Positions 15,060 through 24,937 of a DNA stretch of 40,721 nucleotides are shown here, in pieces; within the stretch, counting starts at the first letter, position 1, and every line of letters starts with the position of its first letter. The notes under the pieces were generated by a model. It was not told the origin of the DNA. It was given only the letters and a program-made list of their open reading frames with translations, and did not search any database. The stretch lies in assembly GCA_015061005.1 (NCBI GenBank), contig SUXJ01000003.1, positions 167,129 to 207,849 on the forward strand. Reading direction: 5' to 3'. A program made the translations under genes and the position numbers. This stretch comes from Bacteroidales bacterium (GTDB lineage Bacteria; Bacteroidota; Bacteroidia; Bacteroidales; Muribaculaceae).

Positions 15060-15755
15060 TTAATTGTAGCCAAGCAACTGAAGTATAATCGGGGCGAGAA
15101 TGGCGGTCAGCAGTCCGTTGATTGTCAGTCCCAAGGAAGAGAATGCTCCCCAACGTTCTCCGCGCTCAATGGCGGCGGCAGTGCCAACCGCATGGCTTGC
15201 GGTGCCAATGGAGAGAGACCCGGCAATGGGGCTTTTTATTCTCGACAATTTGGCAATCTTAAATCCTACTATATTGCCGAAAATCCCTGTGCAGACAACC
15301 ACGGCTGCGGTCAGTGGCGCAATACCCCCAAGGGTAGATGCTATTTCCAATGCGATAGGCGTGGTAACGGATTTCGGTGCCAACGAGATGATTACGGCGC
15401 GCGATGCTCCGAGCATTTCGGCAATCAATACAACGGAAATGATGCCTACTATGCAGCCGGCAAGTTCAGCGAGCAATATGGGTAGTAGCTGCTTGCGAAT
15501 GGTGCTCAACTGCCTGTAAAGCGGCACTCCGAGAGCCACAACTGCCGGCTTGAGCCAAAAATCAATGAATTGTCCCCCTTCTTGATATGTTTCATAGCTG
15601 ATTTCTGTACATAGCAAAAATGCAATGAGAGCTATCATCGAAAAAAGTATCGGATTGAGCAACACTACTTTAAAACGGCGTTGCAACCACTGCCCGAAGA
15701 AGAATACCGCAAAGGTCAGTGCAATCAGAAAAAACTTATTTTCGAGAAATTCCAC
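15060..15755 (-). CDS. lrgB: LrgB/CidB-family membrane protein
   Basis: A 231-residue inner membrane protein. The family signature is intact: KPAVVALGVPLYRQL, then SLAPKSVTTPIALEIASTLGG and SLSIGTASHAVGTAAAIERGE. LrgA/LrgB pairs form a holin/antiholin-like or small-molecule export system affecting murein hydrolase activity in Gram-positives; plant and some bacterial relatives move glycolate or pyruvate. The start overlaps lrgA by 20 bases. It is the last gene of the leftward kinase/RodA-PBP operon, which suggests, without proving, a link to wall turnover. Confidence 0.9.
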   Translation of the reverse strand: MEFLENKFFLIALTFAVFFFGQWLQRRFKVVLLNPILFSMIALIAFLLCTEISYETYQEGGQFIDFWLKPAVVALGVPLYRQLSTIRKQLLPILLAELAGCIVGIISVVLIAEMLGASRAVIISLAPKSVTTPIALEIASTLGGIAPLTAAVVVCTGIFGNIVGFKIAKLSRIKSPIAGSLSIGTASHAVGTAAAIERGERWGAFSSLGLTINGLLTAILAPIILQLLGYN

Positions 15756-16095
15756 GTTTGTTCAGCTTTCGGGCAAATTGGTGCACCCTACCGGTAACTG
15801 CAATTACCAGCAAGGTGCTGACTATCGTTGCGATGATAATAGTGAAGAGGTCGGCGCGGATAATGTCGAGGCATTTAAGTAGCCCCACTCCGGCTGGCAC
15901 GAAAAAGAACCCGATATTTTTCACCAAGAAATCGGCAATGCGACTAACCCACTGCTCCTTGATGATACCGATTTTTAGAGCTGCAGTGAGCGAAATCATG
16001 CCTATGATGCTTGACGGAATCGGCACTCCGGTCAGATATACCACCAACTCGCCAAGTGCTAAAAACGCAAACAAAATCAAGCACTGCACCACCAT
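15736..16095 (-). CDS. lrgA: LrgA/CidA-family holin-like protein
   Basis: A 119-residue protein with four hydrophobic segments and the CidA/LrgA pattern: LALGELVVYLTGVPIPSSIIGM, then DFLVKNIGFFFVPAGVGLL near the middle, ending in a basic tail (RKLNKRGISRK). It would form oligomeric pores or a transporter with LrgB. The ATG at 16095 is one base after the kinase stop (16097-16099), so it is translated directly behind the kinase; the 3' end overlaps lrgB by 20 bases. This tight packing is the reason to treat lrgAB as part of the phosphorylation operon. Confidence 0.9.
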   Translation of the reverse strand: MVVQCLILFAFLALGELVVYLTGVPIPSSIIGMISLTAALKIGIIKEQWVSRIADFLVKNIGFFFVPAGVGLLKCLDIIRADLFTIIIATIVSTLLVIAVTGRVHQFARKLNKRGISRK

Positions 16096-16096
16096 A

Positions 16097-17692
16097 TCAG
16101 ATTTGCTTTGCCTTCCTGTATTGCAGTTTGTGAATAATAATCAGCGTGAATGCACCGATGCATGTGGCCATCAACATTTCGTCTTCTCCATAATGATCGA
16201 AGAGTGAGCATATCACTGCAAAAACTGTCCAACATAGAATGAATAGCACATTGATGAACTTCCATTTTGGTTTGACAAGCCACGGAATGATGACGCAAAG
16301 TACGGTGAAGATGAACGGCCAAGCCCCAAAGTGAGCAAAGTACCCGGCATAGTCACTTCTCTCGTACCAATCAAATCCATGATCCAATCCTTCCAAACAC
16401 ATAAAGCATGAGCAAACCAAGACTAAGAGCCAAAGAAAGTTTGTGAATACTTTAATCCACGTTTTTTCTTTAGCTGCAGGGACCGGGGGGGTTGGCGGAG
16501 GCGTTATTGTCCCCGGAGCTTCTGTAACATTTCTCCGTGTGATTTTTTGCGCAAGATTTTGATGCATTGAGTTGATGTCGGCTCGGAGCTGTTTGATTTC
16601 ACTCTGAAGTTCGGCAATCACTGCGGGATCCAATTGCGCGTACTGCGGTTGCTCCGGTTGCGGTTGCTCCGTCTGCGGCTGCTGCGGCTGTTCCGGCTCG
16701 GAGTGGTGAGCGAAGCATTCTTGCAGAGCAGTGAGGAGAACTTTTGCATTTTCAAAACGTTCTTCAGGATTCTTTGCCAAGCATGTCATTACGATGTCAA
16801 CCAATCCATCGGGAAGATCATCGGTAAACGTCATGCCCGGGTGGGTGGATTCAAAAGCCTGCTTTCGCAGGTCGATGAGATTAGGCGGAGTCTCGTTGAG
16901 GTGCTGCATATAGACTTTGGCGCGCGCCGATTCAGGTGAGTTACCTTTGCATTGGAACGGAACACGCCCGGTAAGCATCTCATAGAGCAGAATCCCGAGA
17001 GCATACACATCGGATTGTTTTGACGTTAAGTTGTTTTCCAATTTTTCCGGAGCAGTATATTCGATAGCACCGTCGCCGCGCGATGAACTTTTCACGCAGT
17101 GGTCATTCTGAATCGACAGCCCGAAGTCAAGGAGAATATATTGGCCGTCATAATGTCTGCGAATGATATTGTTGGAATGCAGATCATTGTGGGTAACGCT
17201 ATACTCTGCAATCAGTTCTTGCTCTTTTTTCGGCGAGATGATAAATCTCCGTCCATCGTTCGGATCGGGCTCAAGGTTGTCTTTTTCCGCATCCATCAAG
17301 AATCTGTAAATATCGACGTGGCAATATGCCAGCGCGCCTACAATCTGCATGGCAAACGCCTTGAATTCATCAATAGATATGAACTTCTCGGTGCCAATAT
17401 ATTCGGCAAGCGAAAGGCCGTCAACGAAGTCCATTTCCACTGCTGCTTTGTTCTCAAGGAGTTTGGGTTGATAGATTCTGACAATGTTGGGGTGAGCACC
17501 GTTGCCGATACGAAGAAGCATCTTGCACTCTTCAAGAAAGGTTTTCCAAACCTTGTCGTCTTTGCTTTCGATTAGTTCGTGGCTAACCTTCAGAGCTCTG
17601 ACATAGTCGAGTTCGGCATGGCGCACTTTATAGACCGACGCAAAGGCACCTTTGCCTAAGAGTCGCAGCTTTTCATATTCTTGTAGAAACAT
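16097..17692 (-). CDS. Membrane Ser/Thr protein kinase with atypical HND catalytic loop
   Basis: A 531-residue Hanks-type kinase. The domain covers about 6-305: Gly-loop LGKGAFASVYKV, invariant Lys35 (RALKVS), catalytic loop THNDLHSNN in place of HRDLKPxN, LLDFGLS (DFG), EYTAPEKL (APE) and SDVYALGILLYEMLTG. The Asp and Asn of the catalytic loop are kept; Arg and the following Lys are replaced. About 30 extra residues precede that loop. A Pro/Gln linker (16642-16697) and a coiled coil (AELQSEIKQLRADINSMHQN) lead to four membrane helices (about 415-525). There is no PASTA or other extracellular sensor domain. It sits between an FHA gene and lrgA, the position pknA/pknB hold in Actinobacteria. 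Confidence 0.9.
   Translation of the reverse strand: MFLQEYEKLRLLGKGAFASVYKVRHAELDYVRALKVSHELIESKDDKVWKTFLEECKMLLRIGNGAHPNIVRIYQPKLLENKAAVEMDFVDGLSLAEYIGTEKFISIDEFKAFAMQIVGALAYCHVDIYRFLMDAEKDNLEPDPNDGRRFIISPKKEQELIAEYSVTHNDLHSNNIIRRHYDGQYILLDFGLSIQNDHCVKSSSRGDGAIEYTAPEKLENNLTSKQSDVYALGILLYEMLTGRVPFQCKGNSPESARAKVYMQHLNETPPNLIDLRKQAFESTHPGMTFTDDLPDGLVDIVMTCLAKNPEERFENAKVLLTALQECFAHHSEPEQPQQPQTEQPQPEQPQYAQLDPAVIAELQSEIKQLRADINSMHQNLAQKITRRNVTEAPGTITPPPTPPVPAAKEKTWIKVFTNFLWLLVLVCSCFMCLEGLDHGFDWYERSDYAGYFAHFGAWPFIFTVLCVIIPWLVKPKWKFINVLFILCWTVFAVICSLFDHYGEDEMLMATCIGAFTLIIIHKLQYRKAKQI
16642..16697 (-). repeat. Imperfect hexamer repeat encoding the Pro/Gln linker of the kinase
   Basis: Repeated GGTTGC/CTGCGG units within the kinase gene encode an array of Glu-Gln-Pro-Gln-like residues (EQPQPEQPQ). 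The units vary slightly. Such tracts can change length by slippage without a frameshift because the unit is six bases. Confidence 0.6.
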
Positions 17693-17704
17693 AATTCTGT
17701 GAGA

Positions 17705-18565
17705 TTATTGCTGTTTTTCGGTTGAGAAAATCAAAACAACGTGTTTGCCCAATTCGATGTGGTCTTTGTCCCTGAGAGGAATGAGACTGTCGGTGTCGCG
17801 CAGCTCTGTGCATTTGTCATTGCGATAGATTTTGGTTGCCACTCCGCCCGAAGCGCGGCAGCCGCCTTCTGAGGCTTTGATGTAAAACGCATTATTCTCT
17901 ATGATGATTTCTGCTTGAGCACTGCTGACGTATTTGTTCATTTCCGACAATACGGAGTCACTTTCTGCATCATTGATGATGATGTCGTTGATTCGCATAC
18001 GCCCGTACTTGCGAGCCGATACCCCTCGCCCTATCTTATATGAGGTTTTTTCTTTCGCTGACATATAAACCGGAGATTCCAAAAGACTGCCTGTGCCCTC
18101 CTCCACTGCAATCCATGCCTCGGCAGGTGTGATATTGGACTCTTTGGCGGATTTAACGGGCTCTTTTTCGCTTTCCCAATTGTAATATAATTCGTCAGCT
18201 ATGACCGATATGCTGTTATGAGGGAGCTTGTCAGATGTAATGAAGTTGATTTGTAACTTCTTACGACCTATGGTTTCAAGCATGGCGTTATCAAGGGCAA
18301 GGCGCAGGTCTGACTTAAACACATCGTCGGCCCAAGCAAAGTCAGTGGGCTCATAGTCTTCTTCGGGGACAATTACCCAGATGTTCATATTGTGCAATTT
18401 GGCGGACTTCGACCCAATTGCTCCACTGAGGGATTTTACAATAGCTTTGACAGCATTTTCGCGCCGGTCAATTGCATTGTCGGTTGCCTCTTTAGTTGTG
18501 TTTTCTGTTTCCGGATCTGTGGCGTCTCCGGAAAGTTTTGCGAATATTTTGTTGAATAGTTTCAT
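17705..18565 (-). CDS. FHA-domain protein with FhaA-like N-terminal region (second copy)
   Basis: A 286-residue cytoplasmic protein. The C-terminal ~100 residues are an FHA fold: SYKIGRGVSARKYGRMRIND, then NKYVSSAQAEIIIENNAFYI, and LIPLRDKDHIELGKHVVLIF. The phospho-Thr loop is not canonical: the usual SxxH is SSAQ and the usual NGT is GGVAT, but the Gly-Arg pair is kept. The N-terminal half contains NIWVIVPEEDYEPTDF and a mixed helix-strand segment resembling the DUF3662/FhaA_N domain (assignment by eye). It lies 6 bases after the SEDS-PBP gene and 12 before the kinase, so it is a probable kinase partner or scaffold. Confidence 0.8.
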   Translation of the reverse strand: MKLFNKIFAKLSGDATDPETENTTKEATDNAIDRRENAVKAIVKSLSGAIGSKSAKLHNMNIWVIVPEEDYEPTDFAWADDVFKSDLRLALDNAMLETIGRKKLQINFITSDKLPHNSISVIADELYYNWESEKEPVKSAKESNITPAEAWIAVEEGTGSLLESPVYMSAKEKTSYKIGRGVSARKYGRMRINDIIINDAESDSVLSEMNKYVSSAQAEIIIENNAFYIKASEGGCRASGGVATKIYRNDKCTELRDTDSLIPLRDKDHIELGKHVVLIFSTEKQQ

Positions 18566-18571
18566 AAGCGA

Positions 18572-21500
18572 TTATTTTACTTTATAGCCGGTTGACTGCA
18601 AGGTGGGAATAATGGCATTTGCCATGGCTTTCACGGCAAGTCCGGAAGTGTAGCCCGAATTCCCCACGCTTGTGCGTTCAATTCTTAGTGCGATTGCAAG
18701 AGGCGAGCCGGTTTTCTCTGATTCTATGAAGCAGATATACCATGCATCGTTTCTGTCAACTCCTCTGCGGTCGGTCCTTTCCGGAGTGCCGGTTTTGCCG
18801 CCCATGCGCTTCTCTGAGGAACTGTGTTTTGGGAATGAGTATCTATTACTCCTATGTTTGTCGGACTCTTCTTGCATAAAGCTTTTCAGTCGGTTGGCGG
18901 ATTTCTCGTCAATGACGGATATGCTTTCTGATGCGTAGTCTTCCGATAATGTGTAGCGGGTCGGAACCAATGTGCCGTTGTTTGCCACGATTGATGCCAC
19001 GCGCGCCATGTTGAGCGGAGTGGCTCGCAATGCACCTTGTCCCCACGCAACGGCAGTCTGCGCCCACCACATTTTGCGTGGACCAAGTGTCTTGTTGTAA
19101 TTATAAGTGTTGACTGCATTGATTCCGATGTCAGTCATCAATTCGGAGAAGTTTGCTTTCGACGACAGCTCTCCGATATGGAAGTAATATGGGGTTTGAC
19201 TCTCATACGGTGCATTGAAATGTTGAACTCGGACACCAACGGCCTGATACAACGAGTCTAACTCCGTATATAATTCTTTTTCATGTACGAGCTTCACAAA
19301 ATAGCAGTTCGAGGATTTCACTATGGCACGTTCCATATTCACTCGACCCAAGGGCTCAACACCGGGCGGCTCAATGGCTTCTGCGGCAACGATATCGTAC
19401 CATTGATTAGCTGCGTCGGGACCTTCTTTCATCAACGCTGCAATTGCCGACATAACTTTCGCCGTTGATCCGGGCTGTGACTGGAACGTCAAACCGAGAT
19501 CTCGTTCGGTGATCGGAGTGTGTCCTTTGATTTTTTCCGCAGGTGCATCTCCCCAAATTCGGCGTTCGTTGAGCATGACAATGGAATCTTGTTCCGGTAG
19601 TGGATAGTTTGCCGACGAGAGCAAGTCGCCGGTGCGACTGTCGAGGATAACGACCGAAGCTCTCAAGTCCTTATATCCCTTGAGTAGGTTTGCCGGATTA
19701 CTTATAAACTTGTTAAGCTCATTTTGGAGAGCCACTTGCAGTTTTGCATCAATGGTGAGTTTGAGGTCGCGTTCAGGGCGGTTTGCATTGTGCTCCTCAA
19801 TGAAGTGGTTATTGTGAACGTCCAACTCAAGGAAAGGAAGAAGTGCGGAGTAGTCCTTCAGTCTGTAGGTGAAAGTCCGAGGTTGTGCCGACATGAACCT
19901 GTTTGGTTTATATTCATCAGCAGTCAAGGTTACTACGTCTGTAATCGGAATATCCAATCCACGCAATTCGGACAGATGTCTGTATTCTGCAAGATATCCG
20001 GTCGGATTGGCATCGTAGTAGCTGTAAACCTGACGTGTATTGGCATCGCCAATCATAAACAGGGTGTGATTGCCAAACGGGTAGTAACGCCGTTGTGTTT
20101 TTGCCATCATGGCTGCAATCTCGGTCTTGTTCGCTCCTGCTTTAATTAAGATTTCTTGATTATTGCTGACTGAGTCGCGGTTACTCGTTGCCAATAGCAA
20201 TCCGTTTCTATCATATATATTCCCGGATTCGAGTCGGCGCAGAACCTTATTGATGCGAGGATTATATTCAACGATGCGTGCCCCTTCAGTGTTCGTAATC
20301 AAAGCCGGACGAATCAGAGTGTCGCTTTTGTCAAGAATCTGATAGTTGGCTATGGTGGCAAGAATGACAATACCACCGGCCATGAATACCAATGCTCCTG
20401 CAGCAACGGCCCCTTGAAATTTGTGTGCGTTTTCTTTTTGTGCTTCAGTCGTTTTGAGGCGTGATGCCGATAGGGCGATACCATATACCGTGAGCATCAT
20501 CACCAGACTCACACCGCCTTGACTGAGGAAGGGCACATTGATGCCGGTAAGAGGGAAGAGACCTAATGAGCCGAACACTATTATAAGGAATTGCACTCCG
20601 GTCATTATGCCCAATCCCATCACGAAGAACATCACAAACGGATTGCCGGCTTTACGTCCGATGAGCAGCGTGCGGTGAATTAATGCAAACATGCAGAGAA
20701 CCACGAGGAGCAAACCGACAAAACCGAGCATCTCACCTATGGAGAGAAAGGCCATGTCGGTATGACACGCCGGAATGCTTGACGGGCTACCATTGCCTAA
20801 TCCCATGCCGGTAAGGCCGCCGGAAGCAACGCCCCATATTCCTTGTGCAATTTGATCGCCGCCCGGCACTGTGTTGTTCCAGACGCCATCCCATGCCATG
20901 CCGGTGCGATTCGACATTCGAGCACCTTCATTTCCCCCAAGAAATGCATTCATAAGAATGAACAGCAGAGGAATGAGATTCATGAAATACGCACTCTCAA
21001 AGATGGTTCGATGTTTCAAGCAATAGATGGACCAACCTACGTACCATGCAACTGCCGCAATTGCCACTATTATCATTGACTGCGATATGAGCCATGCAGC
21101 AAGCAAACAAATTGCAAACGTTGATACTCCGAGCAGCATTTTGCCTAAATCTTGGCGAACTACTGAATACAGTAGTATAAACGTAAACAACAATACTAAT
21201 GCCGGACCGCCATCAGAGAGATAAAAGTATATGCCCATGAGGGTCATCATTGCAAATACAATGACCGACATGATTCTCAATTTGCGCTTAGTAGTAAGAG
21301 TGGTCGCTTTTTCCGAGAATTTCTGAATCAGCGTATATTTGTCTGCAAAAAATGCTGCAATGAATGCAAGTATGAGAAACTTGCATATCTCGCTTGGTTG
21401 AATAGGACCAAGGTTGACTTTGGCAACGCTGCCTTCGGGTCCGGTCCCAAAGAAGGCTAACATCACAAACAGAAAAACCGCCAATCCAAGGAATATCCAA

Positions 21501-22699
21501 CCTTTGTTTTGAGATATGTTGAGTAGCCACGTAAAGCGTTGCTGAGGCTGAATCAGTGATTTGCCGTGATAAAACTTTGCCCAATTGATGGAGTATAATG
21601 CAGCAAATCCCAATAACCCGACTCCGAGATACGTTGACATGCTGCTGCCGTGAGCAATATCGCAGAGAGGATCGGTGATAGAGTGCCATGCAAAAGTGCC
21701 GATGCCCGACAATGTCATTAGGATGATAATGCTCAAGTAGTCGGATCTTGTTTTGAGTCTGTAGTCAGTATATAATGCAAGGAAAAGGACTGCCGCCCAC
21801 CCAATCAAAAAGATCAAACAGCCCAAGAGGAGCGAACTCTTATAGTCGGCAGGAGTGCGCGCCGTCAGTGCATTGTCTGCCTTAATGTTGGAAAATACGC
21901 TACGAGATATTGGTGTCAACGTGTGAATTTTTTCCGTAAATCGGCAATTTAATCCGTCTTCAGTTAGTTCCGACGAGGTTGTGCCTCTCGCTTTGCCATA
22001 TTGATAACCACGGTTAACAGGCACTACGCTATAATATTTCCCTTTGGGGACATAAAATCTTGCCTTTCCTTTATTGTCGGTTTTTGTCCACGCTACGGTC
22101 TTTTCTGCAATTTCTTCTTGATAAACGGTGTCTTGTAAGTTAGATTTTATGACCTTAAGTTCGGTGTAATGTTCGCGCAGTCTGACCGGAATACCTGAGA
22201 GCTGGCGCAATGGGTTTTTGCTCGTAACTGTAACTTCTATGCACGCATTGCCTGCCGATTGCTCGCCATAAGTATCACTTAAATTATCATTCTTAATGTT
22301 GTTGTATTCAGCGTCTTGTCCGAGAGAGTGATAATCGTTTTCAATGCGAATTTTAGTTTCTTTTCCGCCCAACATGGACGCTGTGTCCGCCGAAATTTTA
22401 AAGTTGTCCTTTAAGAGTGAGCCGAGGTTGGGAATTCCATTACCTAATTGAATCTTTTTGTAAATCCAATCGGCCGCCATGCGAGCGTCTTTAGGGTCAA
22501 TGATGTATCCGCCATTGTACAATACCTTGTATAATGCGTCGGCGGTGAACTCGGAATTCAATGCCAATGCTTGACCGTCTTGAGCGGCCTTATTGAATTC
22601 CTCAAATTGATATGAGCGGTTAGATAATAGCGAGAATATTCCGCAAAGGAACATCGTAGCGCATATTAGGTAGCCGATTAAGGATTTACGCGGACTCAT
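18572..22699 (-). CDS. Fused SEDS glycosyltransferase (RodA/FtsW) and class B penicillin-binding protein
   Basis: One 1375-residue polypeptide carrying both halves of a wall polymerase. Numbered from ATG 22699: one membrane helix (5-25); an extracytoplasmic region (26-287) whose end, with SGIPVRLREHY and KARFYVPKGKYYSVVPVN, looks like a CnaB or regulatory beta-sandwich; the multi-helix SEDS domain (about 290-750) with GPIQPSEICKFL, SDGGPALVLL, ACHTDMAFLSIGEMLG and LTGINVPFLSQGG; a helix (765-785); a pedestal with ESGNIYDRNGLLLA; and a transpeptidase domain with S1078TAK, S1129SN and K1302TGT, all three catalytic motifs intact. ATG 22699 is preferred over 22795; it overlaps the PP2C gene by 14 bases. 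It should polymerise lipid II and crosslink the product. Confidence 0.92.
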   Translation of the reverse strand: MSPRKSLIGYLICATMFLCGIFSLLSNRSYQFEEFNKAAQDGQALALNSEFTADALYKVLYNGGYIIDPKDARMAADWIYKKIQLGNGIPNLGSLLKDNFKISADTASMLGGKETKIRIENDYHSLGQDAEYNNIKNDNLSDTYGEQSAGNACIEVTVTSKNPLRQLSGIPVRLREHYTELKVIKSNLQDTVYQEEIAEKTVAWTKTDNKGKARFYVPKGKYYSVVPVNRGYQYGKARGTTSSELTEDGLNCRFTEKIHTLTPISRSVFSNIKADNALTARTPADYKSSLLLGCLIFLIGWAAVLFLALYTDYRLKTRSDYLSIIILMTLSGIGTFAWHSITDPLCDIAHGSSMSTYLGVGLLGFAALYSINWAKFYHGKSLIQPQQRFTWLLNISQNKGWIFLGLAVFLFVMLAFFGTGPEGSVAKVNLGPIQPSEICKFLILAFIAAFFADKYTLIQKFSEKATTLTTKRKLRIMSVIVFAMMTLMGIYFYLSDGGPALVLLFTFILLYSVVRQDLGKMLLGVSTFAICLLAAWLISQSMIIVAIAAVAWYVGWSIYCLKHRTIFESAYFMNLIPLLFILMNAFLGGNEGARMSNRTGMAWDGVWNNTVPGGDQIAQGIWGVASGGLTGMGLGNGSPSSIPACHTDMAFLSIGEMLGFVGLLLVVLCMFALIHRTLLIGRKAGNPFVMFFVMGLGIMTGVQFLIIVFGSLGLFPLTGINVPFLSQGGVSLVMMLTVYGIALSASRLKTTEAQKENAHKFQGAVAAGALVFMAGGIVILATIANYQILDKSDTLIRPALITNTEGARIVEYNPRINKVLRRLESGNIYDRNGLLLATSNRDSVSNNQEILIKAGANKTEIAAMMAKTQRRYYPFGNHTLFMIGDANTRQVYSYYDANPTGYLAEYRHLSELRGLDIPITDVVTLTADEYKPNRFMSAQPRTFTYRLKDYSALLPFLELDVHNNHFIEEHNANRPERDLKLTIDAKLQVALQNELNKFISNPANLLKGYKDLRASVVILDSRTGDLLSSANYPLPEQDSIVMLNERRIWGDAPAEKIKGHTPITERDLGLTFQSQPGSTAKVMSAIAALMKEGPDAANQWYDIVAAEAIEPPGVEPLGRVNMERAIVKSSNCYFVKLVHEKELYTELDSLYQAVGVRVQHFNAPYESQTPYYFHIGELSSKANFSELMTDIGINAVNTYNYNKTLGPRKMWWAQTAVAWGQGALRATPLNMARVASIVANNGTLVPTRYTLSEDYASESISVIDEKSANRLKSFMQEESDKHRSNRYSFPKHSSSEKRMGGKTGTPERTDRRGVDRNDAWYICFIESEKTGSPLAIALRIERTSVGNSGYTSGLAVKAMANAIIPTLQSTGYKVK

Positions 22700-23810
22700 T
22701 TTCTGTGTCTTCTGTGTCGGTGGTAGGTTGTTCAGGTTCGGTAGTTTCTTCTGCCTCGGATTTGGGTTCTGGATTTGACTCGATTTGTTGATCAATCTCC
22801 GGGAGACTTTCCGGTGATGGAATTGAAGTAGAATTTGTATCCATCAGAACTTTCGGTTCTTTTTCGGTATCTTCCTCATGAACGGGGTTGATGAATTTGT
22901 ATGCAACTAATGCCGCCAGAGCAAGGACCGCAAGAACTATAATTACACTAACTGCAACCTTGATTTTCTTTCCTTTTTTCGGCTTGACTACTGCTGTGCC
23001 TCCGGCATTGTTGTCAGTTTTGTTAGCTGATCTGTTGTGAAGTTGTCGTACTTGGGTCAAGACCACTGTGACGTTGTCTTTTCCGCCGGCTTCAAGGGCG
23101 TCGTTTATGAGGCGGTTTACTTTGTCTTCAGTCGCAAGGCTGTCGTTGGCAAGCACTTCGCGTATCTCGGAAGAACGTAACATGTCGCTCAATCCGTCGG
23201 AACAAAACAGGTATTCCGCATCAGCAAGGAGGGGATAAATTGAGGATTCGAGGAATCCTTCATCGTTTACCGTGTGTGATTCATGACCAACGCTGCGACT
23301 GATTACGTTCCGTTGAGGGTGCTTCATTGCCTCTTCTTCGGTTAAGTCGCCGATTTCTTCGCGGTAGCCCACAATGGAATGGTCATGGCTGAGTTTTTGC
23401 AACTCTCCCCCTTGATAACGGTAGAGGCGTGAGTCGCCTACGTGAACCACGTAGAGATGACGACCGATGATGTCGAATAGCCCCACTGTGGCCACACAGC
23501 CCATTGATGAATACTTGGGAGTGGCTTGGCGATGACGCACTATTTCGTTGTTAGCATTGACAAATGCTTGCTTTAAGGCCTCGAATACGTCGTCACCCTG
23601 AAAATCTTCAAGGTCATTTATCAGTGTGAATCGAGCTATATCGGCAGCGACTTCTCCGCCTTCATATCCGCCCATGCCGTCAATGGCGGCACAGAGCAAA
23701 AATTGATTATTCCAAATGTATTGAGATATGAAGCAATCTTCATTATTGGTTCGAACTTTGCCAACATTTGTTGCGCCGAACGTATCGACGGCGATGAGTG
23801 GTTTAATCAT
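22686..23810 (-). CDS. PP2C-family Ser/Thr phosphatase with single membrane helix (PstP-like)
   Basis: A 374-residue metal-dependent phosphatase. The catalytic domain (about 5-250) has RTNNED (res 20-25), DGMGGYEGGE (44-53), YVVHVGDSRLYRY, LFCSDGLSD and GGKDNVTVV, so all metal and phosphate residues are present. A basic stretch (KPKKGKKIK) precedes one membrane helix (about 283-308) and an acidic Pro/Glu/Thr tail outside. This layout (PP2C, helix, short outer tail) matches mycobacterial PstP, which reverses PknA/PknB phosphorylation. The ATG overlaps the microprotein stop (ATGA), and the 3' end overlaps the SEDS-PBP gene. Inferred target: the kinase at 16097-17692 and its substrates. Confidence 0.92.
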   Translation of the reverse strand: MIKPLIAVDTFGATNVGKVRTNNEDCFISQYIWNNQFLLCAAIDGMGGYEGGEVAADIARFTLINDLEDFQGDDVFEALKQAFVNANNEIVRHRQATPKYSSMGCVATVGLFDIIGRHLYVVHVGDSRLYRYQGGELQKLSHDHSIVGYREEIGDLTEEEAMKHPQRNVISRSVGHESHTVNDEGFLESSIYPLLADAEYLFCSDGLSDMLRSSEIREVLANDSLATEDKVNRLINDALEAGGKDNVTVVLTQVRQLHNRSANKTDNNAGGTAVVKPKKGKKIKVAVSVIIVLAVLALAALVAYKFINPVHEEDTEKEPKVLMDTNSTSIPSPESLPEIDQQIESNPEPKSEAEETTEPEQPTTDTEDTENESA

Positions 23811-23890
23811 TTCGGGAGATTATTGAAATGGTTCTTAAATATAAAAATGACCAACAAAGCCAAGGCTATAATAAAAATCAGTTTCGGCAT
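23807..23890 (-). CDS. 27-residue single-helix membrane microprotein
   Basis: A short frame between the first FHA gene and the phosphatase gene. ATG at 23890 is 7 bases after the FHA stop (23898-23900), and its stop TGA (23809-23807) overlaps the phosphatase ATG as ATGA. The product starts MPKLIFIIALALLVIFIF and ends in KNHFNNLPK: one hydrophobic helix of about 16-18 residues with one Lys before it and a short polar tail. The tight coupling at both ends argues for real translation, or at least for a role in translating the phosphatase. Length and composition give no family assignment. Support is positional and compositional only. Confidence 0.6.
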   Translation of the reverse strand: MPKLIFIIALALLVIFIFKNHFNNLPK

Positions 23891-23897
23891 TATGGTT

Positions 23898-24878
23898 TTA
23901 TTGGGCTTTAAAGGTTAGGTCAATGTCATCAATAGATATGTAGGAATGCTTGGGCAGTTGCTCCCACGTGTCTATTCCCGGTGTGAGCTTGCGTTCGTTG
24001 AGTCGAGCTTCGCCCAGAGTGTTTATTTTGAACTTTTTAGATGAACTGTCAAAGGCAATCTCAATGTGATGATTGAGAATCTTATCGCTGTTCACACACA
24101 GAACCGGAATGCCGTCATTGCCCGTTGACCCGTTTTTGCCGGCAATTCTCAGCGACGGATGTTTCATGGTGTAGGTTGTAAATGTGCGATTTCCGTCAAT
24201 AAACGTGCCACCGGTTATTTTGATTGCTGCTAATGCAGATGTTTGTTTTGATGTTGGCGAGGTGTTGTTGACTGGGGCAACAGTATCGTCTAAACTAAAG
24301 CGAAATATGGCTTTGTCTTTCTCGGCAGCAATTAATCCTTGCAATATCGCTGAATTAAACCCCTTGGGTATTTCACGCATTGAATTTTTGTCGTGAAATG
24401 TCACTACTTCGCGCTCTCCGCATGAGTCTTCTTCACCGACTGAAGAGTTGGGTGCCCAAAGGCGTGATACTATTGCTATGCAACTGTCGCAGTCAGAGTT
24501 TTCAAGGCCTTGGATTCTCTGTCCGTTTGCCAAGGGAATCAATTGGAACTCCCAACGCGTGGAAAATGGCGTAAAATCCGGATAATTTGAAAGTTTGTTT
24601 TTCAGCGTTCGGGTGAATACCTTTACTGCATCTTCTGCTGTTTTATGAAAACTTGCCGAGATTTTTTCATAGAAATCTTCTTGAATATATACCTTATAGA
24701 AAGTGTGGCAGAGCATACTCTCTGTGGTGGTTTCCTCGTTTAAGGAGTGATGAAAAGCAGCGCGAAGCGAATCAAGCACGTTTTGGCGCGTAATAGTATT
24801 GTAGCTCTCGAGTTTCGGCTCGGTGTTCGTGTCATTGTCCGGCGCTAATAATTTTTTAAAAAAGTCTCCGATACTCAT
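23898..24878 (-). CDS. FHA-domain protein with FhaA-like N-terminal region (first copy)
   Basis: A 326-residue cytoplasmic protein, first gene of the leftward phosphorylation operon. The N-terminal ~120 residues have HTFYKVYIQEDFYEKIS, helices and TRWEFQLIPL, a pattern close to the DUF3662 domain at the N-terminus of actinobacterial FhaA; the second FHA protein here has a parallel VIVPEEDYE segment. The last ~95 residues look like an FHA fold: PSLRIAGKN, CVNSDKILNHHIEIAF, GEARLNERKL and a closing strand, with the conserved His kept but the Ser of SxxH replaced. A middle stretch has several Cys (SDCDSC, EEDSCGE). Start ATG 24878 follows a TATATTTG box by about 51 bases. Confidence 0.75.
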   Translation of the reverse strand: MSIGDFFKKLLAPDNDTNTEPKLESYNTITRQNVLDSLRAAFHHSLNEETTTESMLCHTFYKVYIQEDFYEKISASFHKTAEDAVKVFTRTLKNKLSNYPDFTPFSTRWEFQLIPLANGQRIQGLENSDCDSCIAIVSRLWAPNSSVGEEDSCGEREVVTFHDKNSMREIPKGFNSAILQGLIAAEKDKAIFRFSLDDTVAPVNNTSPTSKQTSALAAIKITGGTFIDGNRTFTTYTMKHPSLRIAGKNGSTGNDGIPVLCVNSDKILNHHIEIAFDSSSKKFKINTLGEARLNERKLTPGIDTWEQLPKHSYISIDDIDLTFKAQ

Positions 24879-24929
24879 GCAAGACAGAATAGAAGTTCAG
24901 TTATTATATAATGACTCTAAAATATCATG

Positions 24930-24937
24930 CAAATATA
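24930..24937 (-). promoter_or_regulatory. -7 box (TATATTTG) for the FHA-PP2C-RodA/PBP-kinase-lrgAB operon
   Basis: TATATTTG on the minus strand, matching TAnnTTTG, with a leader of roughly 45 bases to ATG 24878. No TTTG is seen at the -33 position. It is the only consensus box before the eight-gene operon. Confidence 0.55.

Follow-up and report, generated by a model that had tools for sequence, protein, structure and literature searches.

We found in Bacteroidota an operon, related to an actinobacterial module, whose likely product is an auxiliary SEDS-bPBP peptidoglycan synthase, the third of its genome, with a Ser/Thr phosphorylation circuit of its own. The copy from which we started lies in a 40,721-nucleotide stretch of a Bacteroidales contig (SUXJ01000003.1; the window, that is, the whole stretch of DNA analyzed), where reading frames and Pfam matches confirm the gene order claimed in the initial annotation, namely FHA1, microprotein, PP2C, SEDS-bPBP fusion, FHA2, Ser/Thr kinase, lrgA and lrgB:

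23898..24878, minus strand: FHA1, an FhaA-like protein whose N-terminus may resemble FhaA_N, with an FHA domain at the C-terminus
23807..23890, minus strand: membrane microprotein of 27 aa, read from the sequence, in the fhaB position
22686..23810, minus strand: PP2C-type Ser/Thr phosphatase with an acidic tail and, by eye, a single membrane helix
18572..22699, minus strand: SEDS-bPBP fusion of 1375 aa, with a helix, a probable extracytoplasmic domain, a SEDS polymerase and a class B PBP transpeptidase
17705..18565, minus strand: FHA2, a second FHA-domain protein, with PF00498 assigned via its family
16097..17692, minus strand: Ser/Thr protein kinase lacking PASTA, with an HND catalytic loop and, by eye, hydrophobic helices at the C-terminus
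15736..16095, minus strand: LrgA (PF03788, 6.3e-30), in the window operon, outside the conserved module
15060..15755, minus strand: LrgB (PF04172, 8.4e-82), in the window operon, outside the conserved module

A scan for promoters and terminators gave no clear excess over shuffles (17 vs. 16.9; 13 vs. 10.8). Profile searches upheld the proposed families for the kinase, PP2C, SEDS, transpeptidase and LrgA/B genes, the exceptions being window FHA2, which taken alone has no PF00498 match in the Pfam scan, and window FHA1, which has no Pfam match to FhaA_N. The kinase (PF00069, 8.2e-40) has the catalytic loop HNDLH and belongs to a family whose profile finds StkP and PknB as the nearest solved sequences; an HxDxxxN loop, in the form of HGD, HRD, HND or HLD, is present in 111 of 112 module kinases. 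None of the 37 module kinases scanned carries PASTA, which bears out the absence of a PASTA sensor first remarked for the window copy. Extra domains in the same 37 kinases comprise TIR, FHA, TPM_phosphatase and a zinc-ribbon (one each) and FGE-sulfatase (two). The window PP2C matches PF13672 (4.9e-13) and PF00481 (1.1e-12) and scores 194.5 bits against NF033484 (Stp1), under the cut-off of 230.

The fusion matches PF01098 (2.3e-33, residues 428-780) and PF00905 (1.6e-21, residues 1047-1395), numbered on a 1407-aa reading that begins at an alternative TTG start at 22795, upstream of the 1375-aa reading. The SEDS aspartate that we take to be catalytic and the SxxK, SxN and KTG motifs of the PBP are conserved in 89-90 of the 90 distinct fusions, with the Thr of KTG replaced by Ser in three of the 90; these counts are on distinct fusions, the 117 rows of the transpeptidase tree containing repeated loci. 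Given these residues, we predict the fusion to be a lipid II polymerase joined to a cross-linking transpeptidase. Its N-terminal part matches CarboxypepD_reg in three outer-lineage fusions, two of them over the cut-off of that profile, which makes a sensor-like domain outside the membrane plausible for the family, the window copy being assigned one by eye. A very improbable alternative is that the fusion produces or alters some other polymer, such as that of a special sheath or aggregate wall, instead of general peptidoglycan: the separation of its SEDS clade from RodA and FtsW and the occurrence of secreted genes without a clear family in some copies would suit such a role, but both halves carry the key residues of peptidoglycan synthases. 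In one outer-lineage locus (L045:6262-10416), a PP2C fused ahead of the SEDS-bPBP makes a single 1384-aa protein of phosphatase, polymerase and transpeptidase.

The window neighborhood is no one-off assembly, as its partners recur in at least 53 of 56 related loci. The survey of Bacteroidota neighborhoods called for by the initial annotation found, in these 56 loci with more than 6 kb on both sides, FHA2 in all 56, FHA1 and the kinase in 54 each and PP2C in 53; across all 80 loci, at least four of which (contigs L047, L050, L056 and L057) equal the profile sources L009, L012, L013 and L011, respectively, the counts are 76 for FHA2, 74 each for PP2C and the kinase and 73 for FHA1. The order FHA1-PP2C-(zero to two kinases)-fusion holds in 69 of the 80 by our own sum, with the kinases varying between loci in number and position; exceptions include L090 and L115, which show only the fusion and FHA2, and L074 and L076, where FHA1-PP2C lies behind. 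Each of the 10 loci sampled at order and class level (L031-L040) has all four partners. The outer lineages (L041-L046, six loci) have FHA1 in five (four by profile, L044 by Pfam) and FHA2 in two, while profile search finds PP2C only in L044 and, fused, in L045, and a kinase only in L046; since these loci mostly lack kinase and PP2C matches, the circuit is demonstrated in full only for class Bacteroidia. The lrgAB pair does not appear to be part of the machine as at first supposed, since blastp at 1e-5 matches neither gene in any of the 80 other loci. Some loci have further genes of their own: L009 (2419-7038) and L010 (6202-12438) feature several mostly secreted-looking genes between kinase and FHA2, mostly without a clear Pfam family, and a response-regulator-like family lies about 10 kb or less from the module in 22 of the 80 loci (e.g., L067:17383-18855).

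The two FHA proteins and the microprotein are best read at the level of their families. In window FHA1 the FHA fold is at the C-terminus, the VIA alignment spanning the FHA part alone; the FhaA N-terminal domain is not among the listed fold matches, which does not speak against its presence. The FHA1 family aligns with FhaA_N at 89.8% in hhalign, and FhaA_N is matched at E <= 0.01 in 4 of 35 FHA1 relatives, the three named ones all being from outer lineages; scored singly, these three reach 26.5 bits (cut-off 25) and, below it, 19.9 and 17.7. For FHA2, PF00498 is found in 20 of 31 family members, and hhalign aligns the family with FHA1 at 95.4%. Its columns 179-180 hold G (31/31) and R (30/31) and column 214 holds S (31/31), with H in column 217 in 28 of 31 members and Q there in the window copy. 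A hydrophobic micro-ORF occupies the gap between FHA1 and the next gene in 57 of 72 related loci, where shuffles preserving base composition only would give 1.4 (72 gaps from the 80 loci, the remaining loci having no closely spaced gene pair). The passing micropeptides are 22-36 aa long with one hydrophobic stretch, and many end in HFxxLPR or HFxDIKxS; where such a peptide is missing, the gap is mostly no longer than 40 bases. Four of five outer-lineage gaps scanned also pass, the fifth falling just under the threshold (1.95 vs. 2.0). In Nonomuraea the same position is occupied by an FhaB-like frame with a hydrophobic N-terminus. From place and topology, the microprotein being too short for sequence comparison, we suggest that it may be a reduced FhaB.

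The ancestry of the SEDS half ties the module to Actinobacteria and Clostridia. In a first tree of 65 rows, the fusions and the actinobacterial and Monoglobus cluster SEDS separate from FtsW and RodA at 100/99. As controls for sorting by phylum, the tree was extended by the FtsW of Tsukamurella, of Nonomuraea and of a Streptomyces plasmid and by both FtsW and RodA of Monoglobus; with 21 of 37 fusions in this tree, the controls fall in the canonical families and the split of fusion and cluster SEDS holds at 100/100, the Nonomuraea "FtsW" (a name given in this analysis) sitting next to RodA. The Arthrobacter cluster (L142) was omitted from the tree as its SEDS spans two frames. Three further actinobacterial rows, two of which (Embleya and S. 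cattleyicolor) have no visible FHA cluster, leave the split at 100/99. The AU test rejects an origin of the fusion SEDS from Bacteroidota RodA (p 0.000174), with which it does not group, or from Bacteroidota FtsW (p 0.00354). The tree contains long branches, which calls for caution on the grouping; the sequences nevertheless support a shared ancestry of the fusion SEDS half with the SEDS of actinobacterial and clostridial fhaA clusters, not coincidence. The independent origin initially entertained is thus not borne out for the SEDS, and of the likeness to the actinobacterial cluster, the common SEDS ancestry (100/100 and AU) and the FhaA_N domain of outer-lineage FHA1 stand. The transpeptidase half shows no clear grouping with cluster PbpA: in its tree the fusions join no other group, the PbpA of the clusters goes with PBP2 at 84/79, and a grouping of fusion and PbpA is not rejected (p-AU 0.171). 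This lack of a clear grouping, the varying number and position of kinases and the outer-lineage loci mostly without kinase and PP2C by profile search would all fit a convergent assembly, in which a fused SEDS-bPBP pair independently became a neighbor of kinase, phosphatase and FHA genes, in an order that only resembles the actinobacterial one. We consider this quite improbable in the face of the controlled SEDS grouping and the AU rejection of Bacteroidota sources, the FhaA_N domain in FHA1 relatives and the hydrophobic peptide behind FHA1 in outer lineages too. Building on the shared ancestry, we tentatively raise, without leaning toward it, a broader reading in which Actinobacteria, Clostridia and Bacteroidota hold a third SEDS lineage of ancient origin, in most cases linked to FHA, PP2C and kinase genes, which in Bacteroidota would be a fused, partly mobile and phosphorylation-switched synthase running beside RodA and FtsW with a reduced-FhaB peptide of about 22-36 aa as regulator.

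The fusion is additional, as the window genome has two ordinary SEDS genes alongside it. One belongs to a gene run that includes FtsZ-, FtsA-, Mur- and FtsI-like members and the other adjoins a PBP2-like gene (named from sequence and order); in the trees the two SEDS group with FtsW and RodA, and the two ordinary PBPs with E. coli FtsI (100/98) and PBP2 (88/85). Two ordinary SEDS genes plus a fusion are likewise seen in nine of nine further genomes, of which G666 holds two fusions, the second, more distant one (L046:112-9088) lying near a kinase-like ORF, besides that of L041.

The spread of the fusion is patchy: with the window included, it is carried by 6 of 149 genomes of the window's family, 2 of 393 in an order sample and 15 of 395 in a phylum sample (thresholds differing between 1e-30 with one sequence and 1e-60 with an alignment), and is frequent in certain genera, with 65 of 100 genomes for the one to which G894 belongs and 27 of 36 for that of G782. 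Among named genomes, a single-sequence scan confirmed no relative and an alignment scan confirmed 389, the best 80 of which are all Bacteroidota by title and include Muribaculaceae, Prevotellaceae, Barnesiella, Mucilaginibacter, Pedobacter, Spirosoma, Larkinella, Chitinophagaceae and others; nothing was found in the viral contigs searched. In Spirosoma oryzicola a 137-kb plasmid carries the entire module (L136:8426-18982), the only copy found in what is apparently the same genome (G1033). The fusion of L090, labeled Flavobacterium sp. SUN052, is nested among Spirosomataceae, suggesting transfer or mislabeling. Patchiness in family and genera and the plasmid-borne copy could point to an accessory, partly mobile tolerance or defense system, a kinase-switched back-up synthase for blocked SEDS-bPBPs or envelope attack, and to this may be added the PADLOC scores of the kinase on models such as mad6 (4.9e-46) and of the PP2C on PDC-M21C (5.2e-8) and weak matches to MecA-type models in at most 9 of 16 fusions. 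In our judgement, however, such PADLOC matches are expected of any such kinase and PP2C; the fusion, FHA1 and LrgAB have none, and no recurring defense or mobility family lies beside the module among the clusters examined, so that we regard this role as rather unlikely. An antiphage system as such was rejected, the PADLOC matches being limited to the kinase and PP2C models.

The auxiliary synthase that we favor is most readily compared with the actinobacterial fhaA-fhaB-pstP-rodA-pbpA-pknA-pknB cluster, which shares its gene families in nearly the same order, including a PP2C between FHA and SEDS genes, as well as an FHA1 relative with FhaA_N and FHA (in outer lineages) and a SEDS of the same group; the actinobacterial orders are as annotated for Actinomyces and Tsukamurella (whose PP2C is not listed) and read from frames for Nonomuraea. 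In contrast to that cluster, the Bacteroidota module has SEDS and PBP fused and an extra FHA2; where FhaB combines a membrane helix with an FHA domain it has a short membrane peptide without FHA, FHA2 lying elsewhere; its kinases lack the PASTA of PknB and vary in number and side; and its owner also has a canonical RodA. As the module lacks the FHA of FhaB and a PASTA kinase and adds the fusion and FHA2, the best reading is that it is a relative, not a strict member, of the actinobacterial one. In the clostridial Monoglobus pectinilyticus (L137), an FHA gene directly precedes a SEDS and a PBP; this SEDS falls in the fusion group and is, as with the fusion, a third one beside FtsW and RodA, but SEDS and PBP are separate and the (incomplete) gene table lists no adjacent PP2C or kinase. 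The canonical RodA-PBP2 and FtsW-FtsI pairs of E. coli and Bacteroidota are the same enzyme pair with the same key residues, but are separate genes of other SEDS groups; the window genome has both kinds. PMC10449877 mentions a SEDS-PBP single ORF, citing the Rhodococcus sp. RHA1 genome, which by that description is one frame like the fusion, but actinobacterial. The Monoglobus SEDS has matches in fifteen Rhodococcus plasmid records, which may be informative given this published fusion. Kinase control of such synthases has been studied in Actinobacteria and Firmicutes, where the module has been linked with growth and division; PMC6554272 ascribes the pknB-fhaA linkage to Actinobacteria and a subset of Firmicutes, and in it knockdown of the pstP operon halts growth of M. 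smegmatis, and that of pstP, rodA or pbpA alters wall and cell shape in M. smegmatis and M. tuberculosis. Among titles and abstract openings in one open-access literature collection, we found no prior description of the module in Bacteroidota.

By analogy with M. smegmatis and M. tuberculosis, we posit that the operon places wall synthesis under phosphorylation control. The module would have been kept by Actinobacteria in the form of the seven-gene cluster and by Clostridia in part, the Bacteroidota copy being a relative. The SEDS half of the fusion would polymerize lipid II and the transpeptidase half cross-link the strand, in a fixed 1:1 ratio; the kinase or kinases may phosphorylate cytoplasmic sites of module proteins or of lipid II supply proteins, with the FHA domains docking the phosphorylated forms and PP2C resetting them. 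The membrane microprotein might replace the membrane anchor of FhaB, and the extracytoplasmic domain of the fusion together with the variable kinase C-termini could take in the signal in place of PASTA. As it would work beside the ordinary FtsW and RodA, the synthase is probably conditional, serving in envelope stress, repair or a growth phase. Gram-negative genera for which named strains exist (Mucilaginibacter, Pedobacter and Spirosoma) carry the full kinase-linked set, with its synthase fused, as an additional system, and, since all nine genomes checked keep their two ordinary SEDS, the module is probably deletable; if so, phosphorylation gating of a SEDS synthase would become directly testable.
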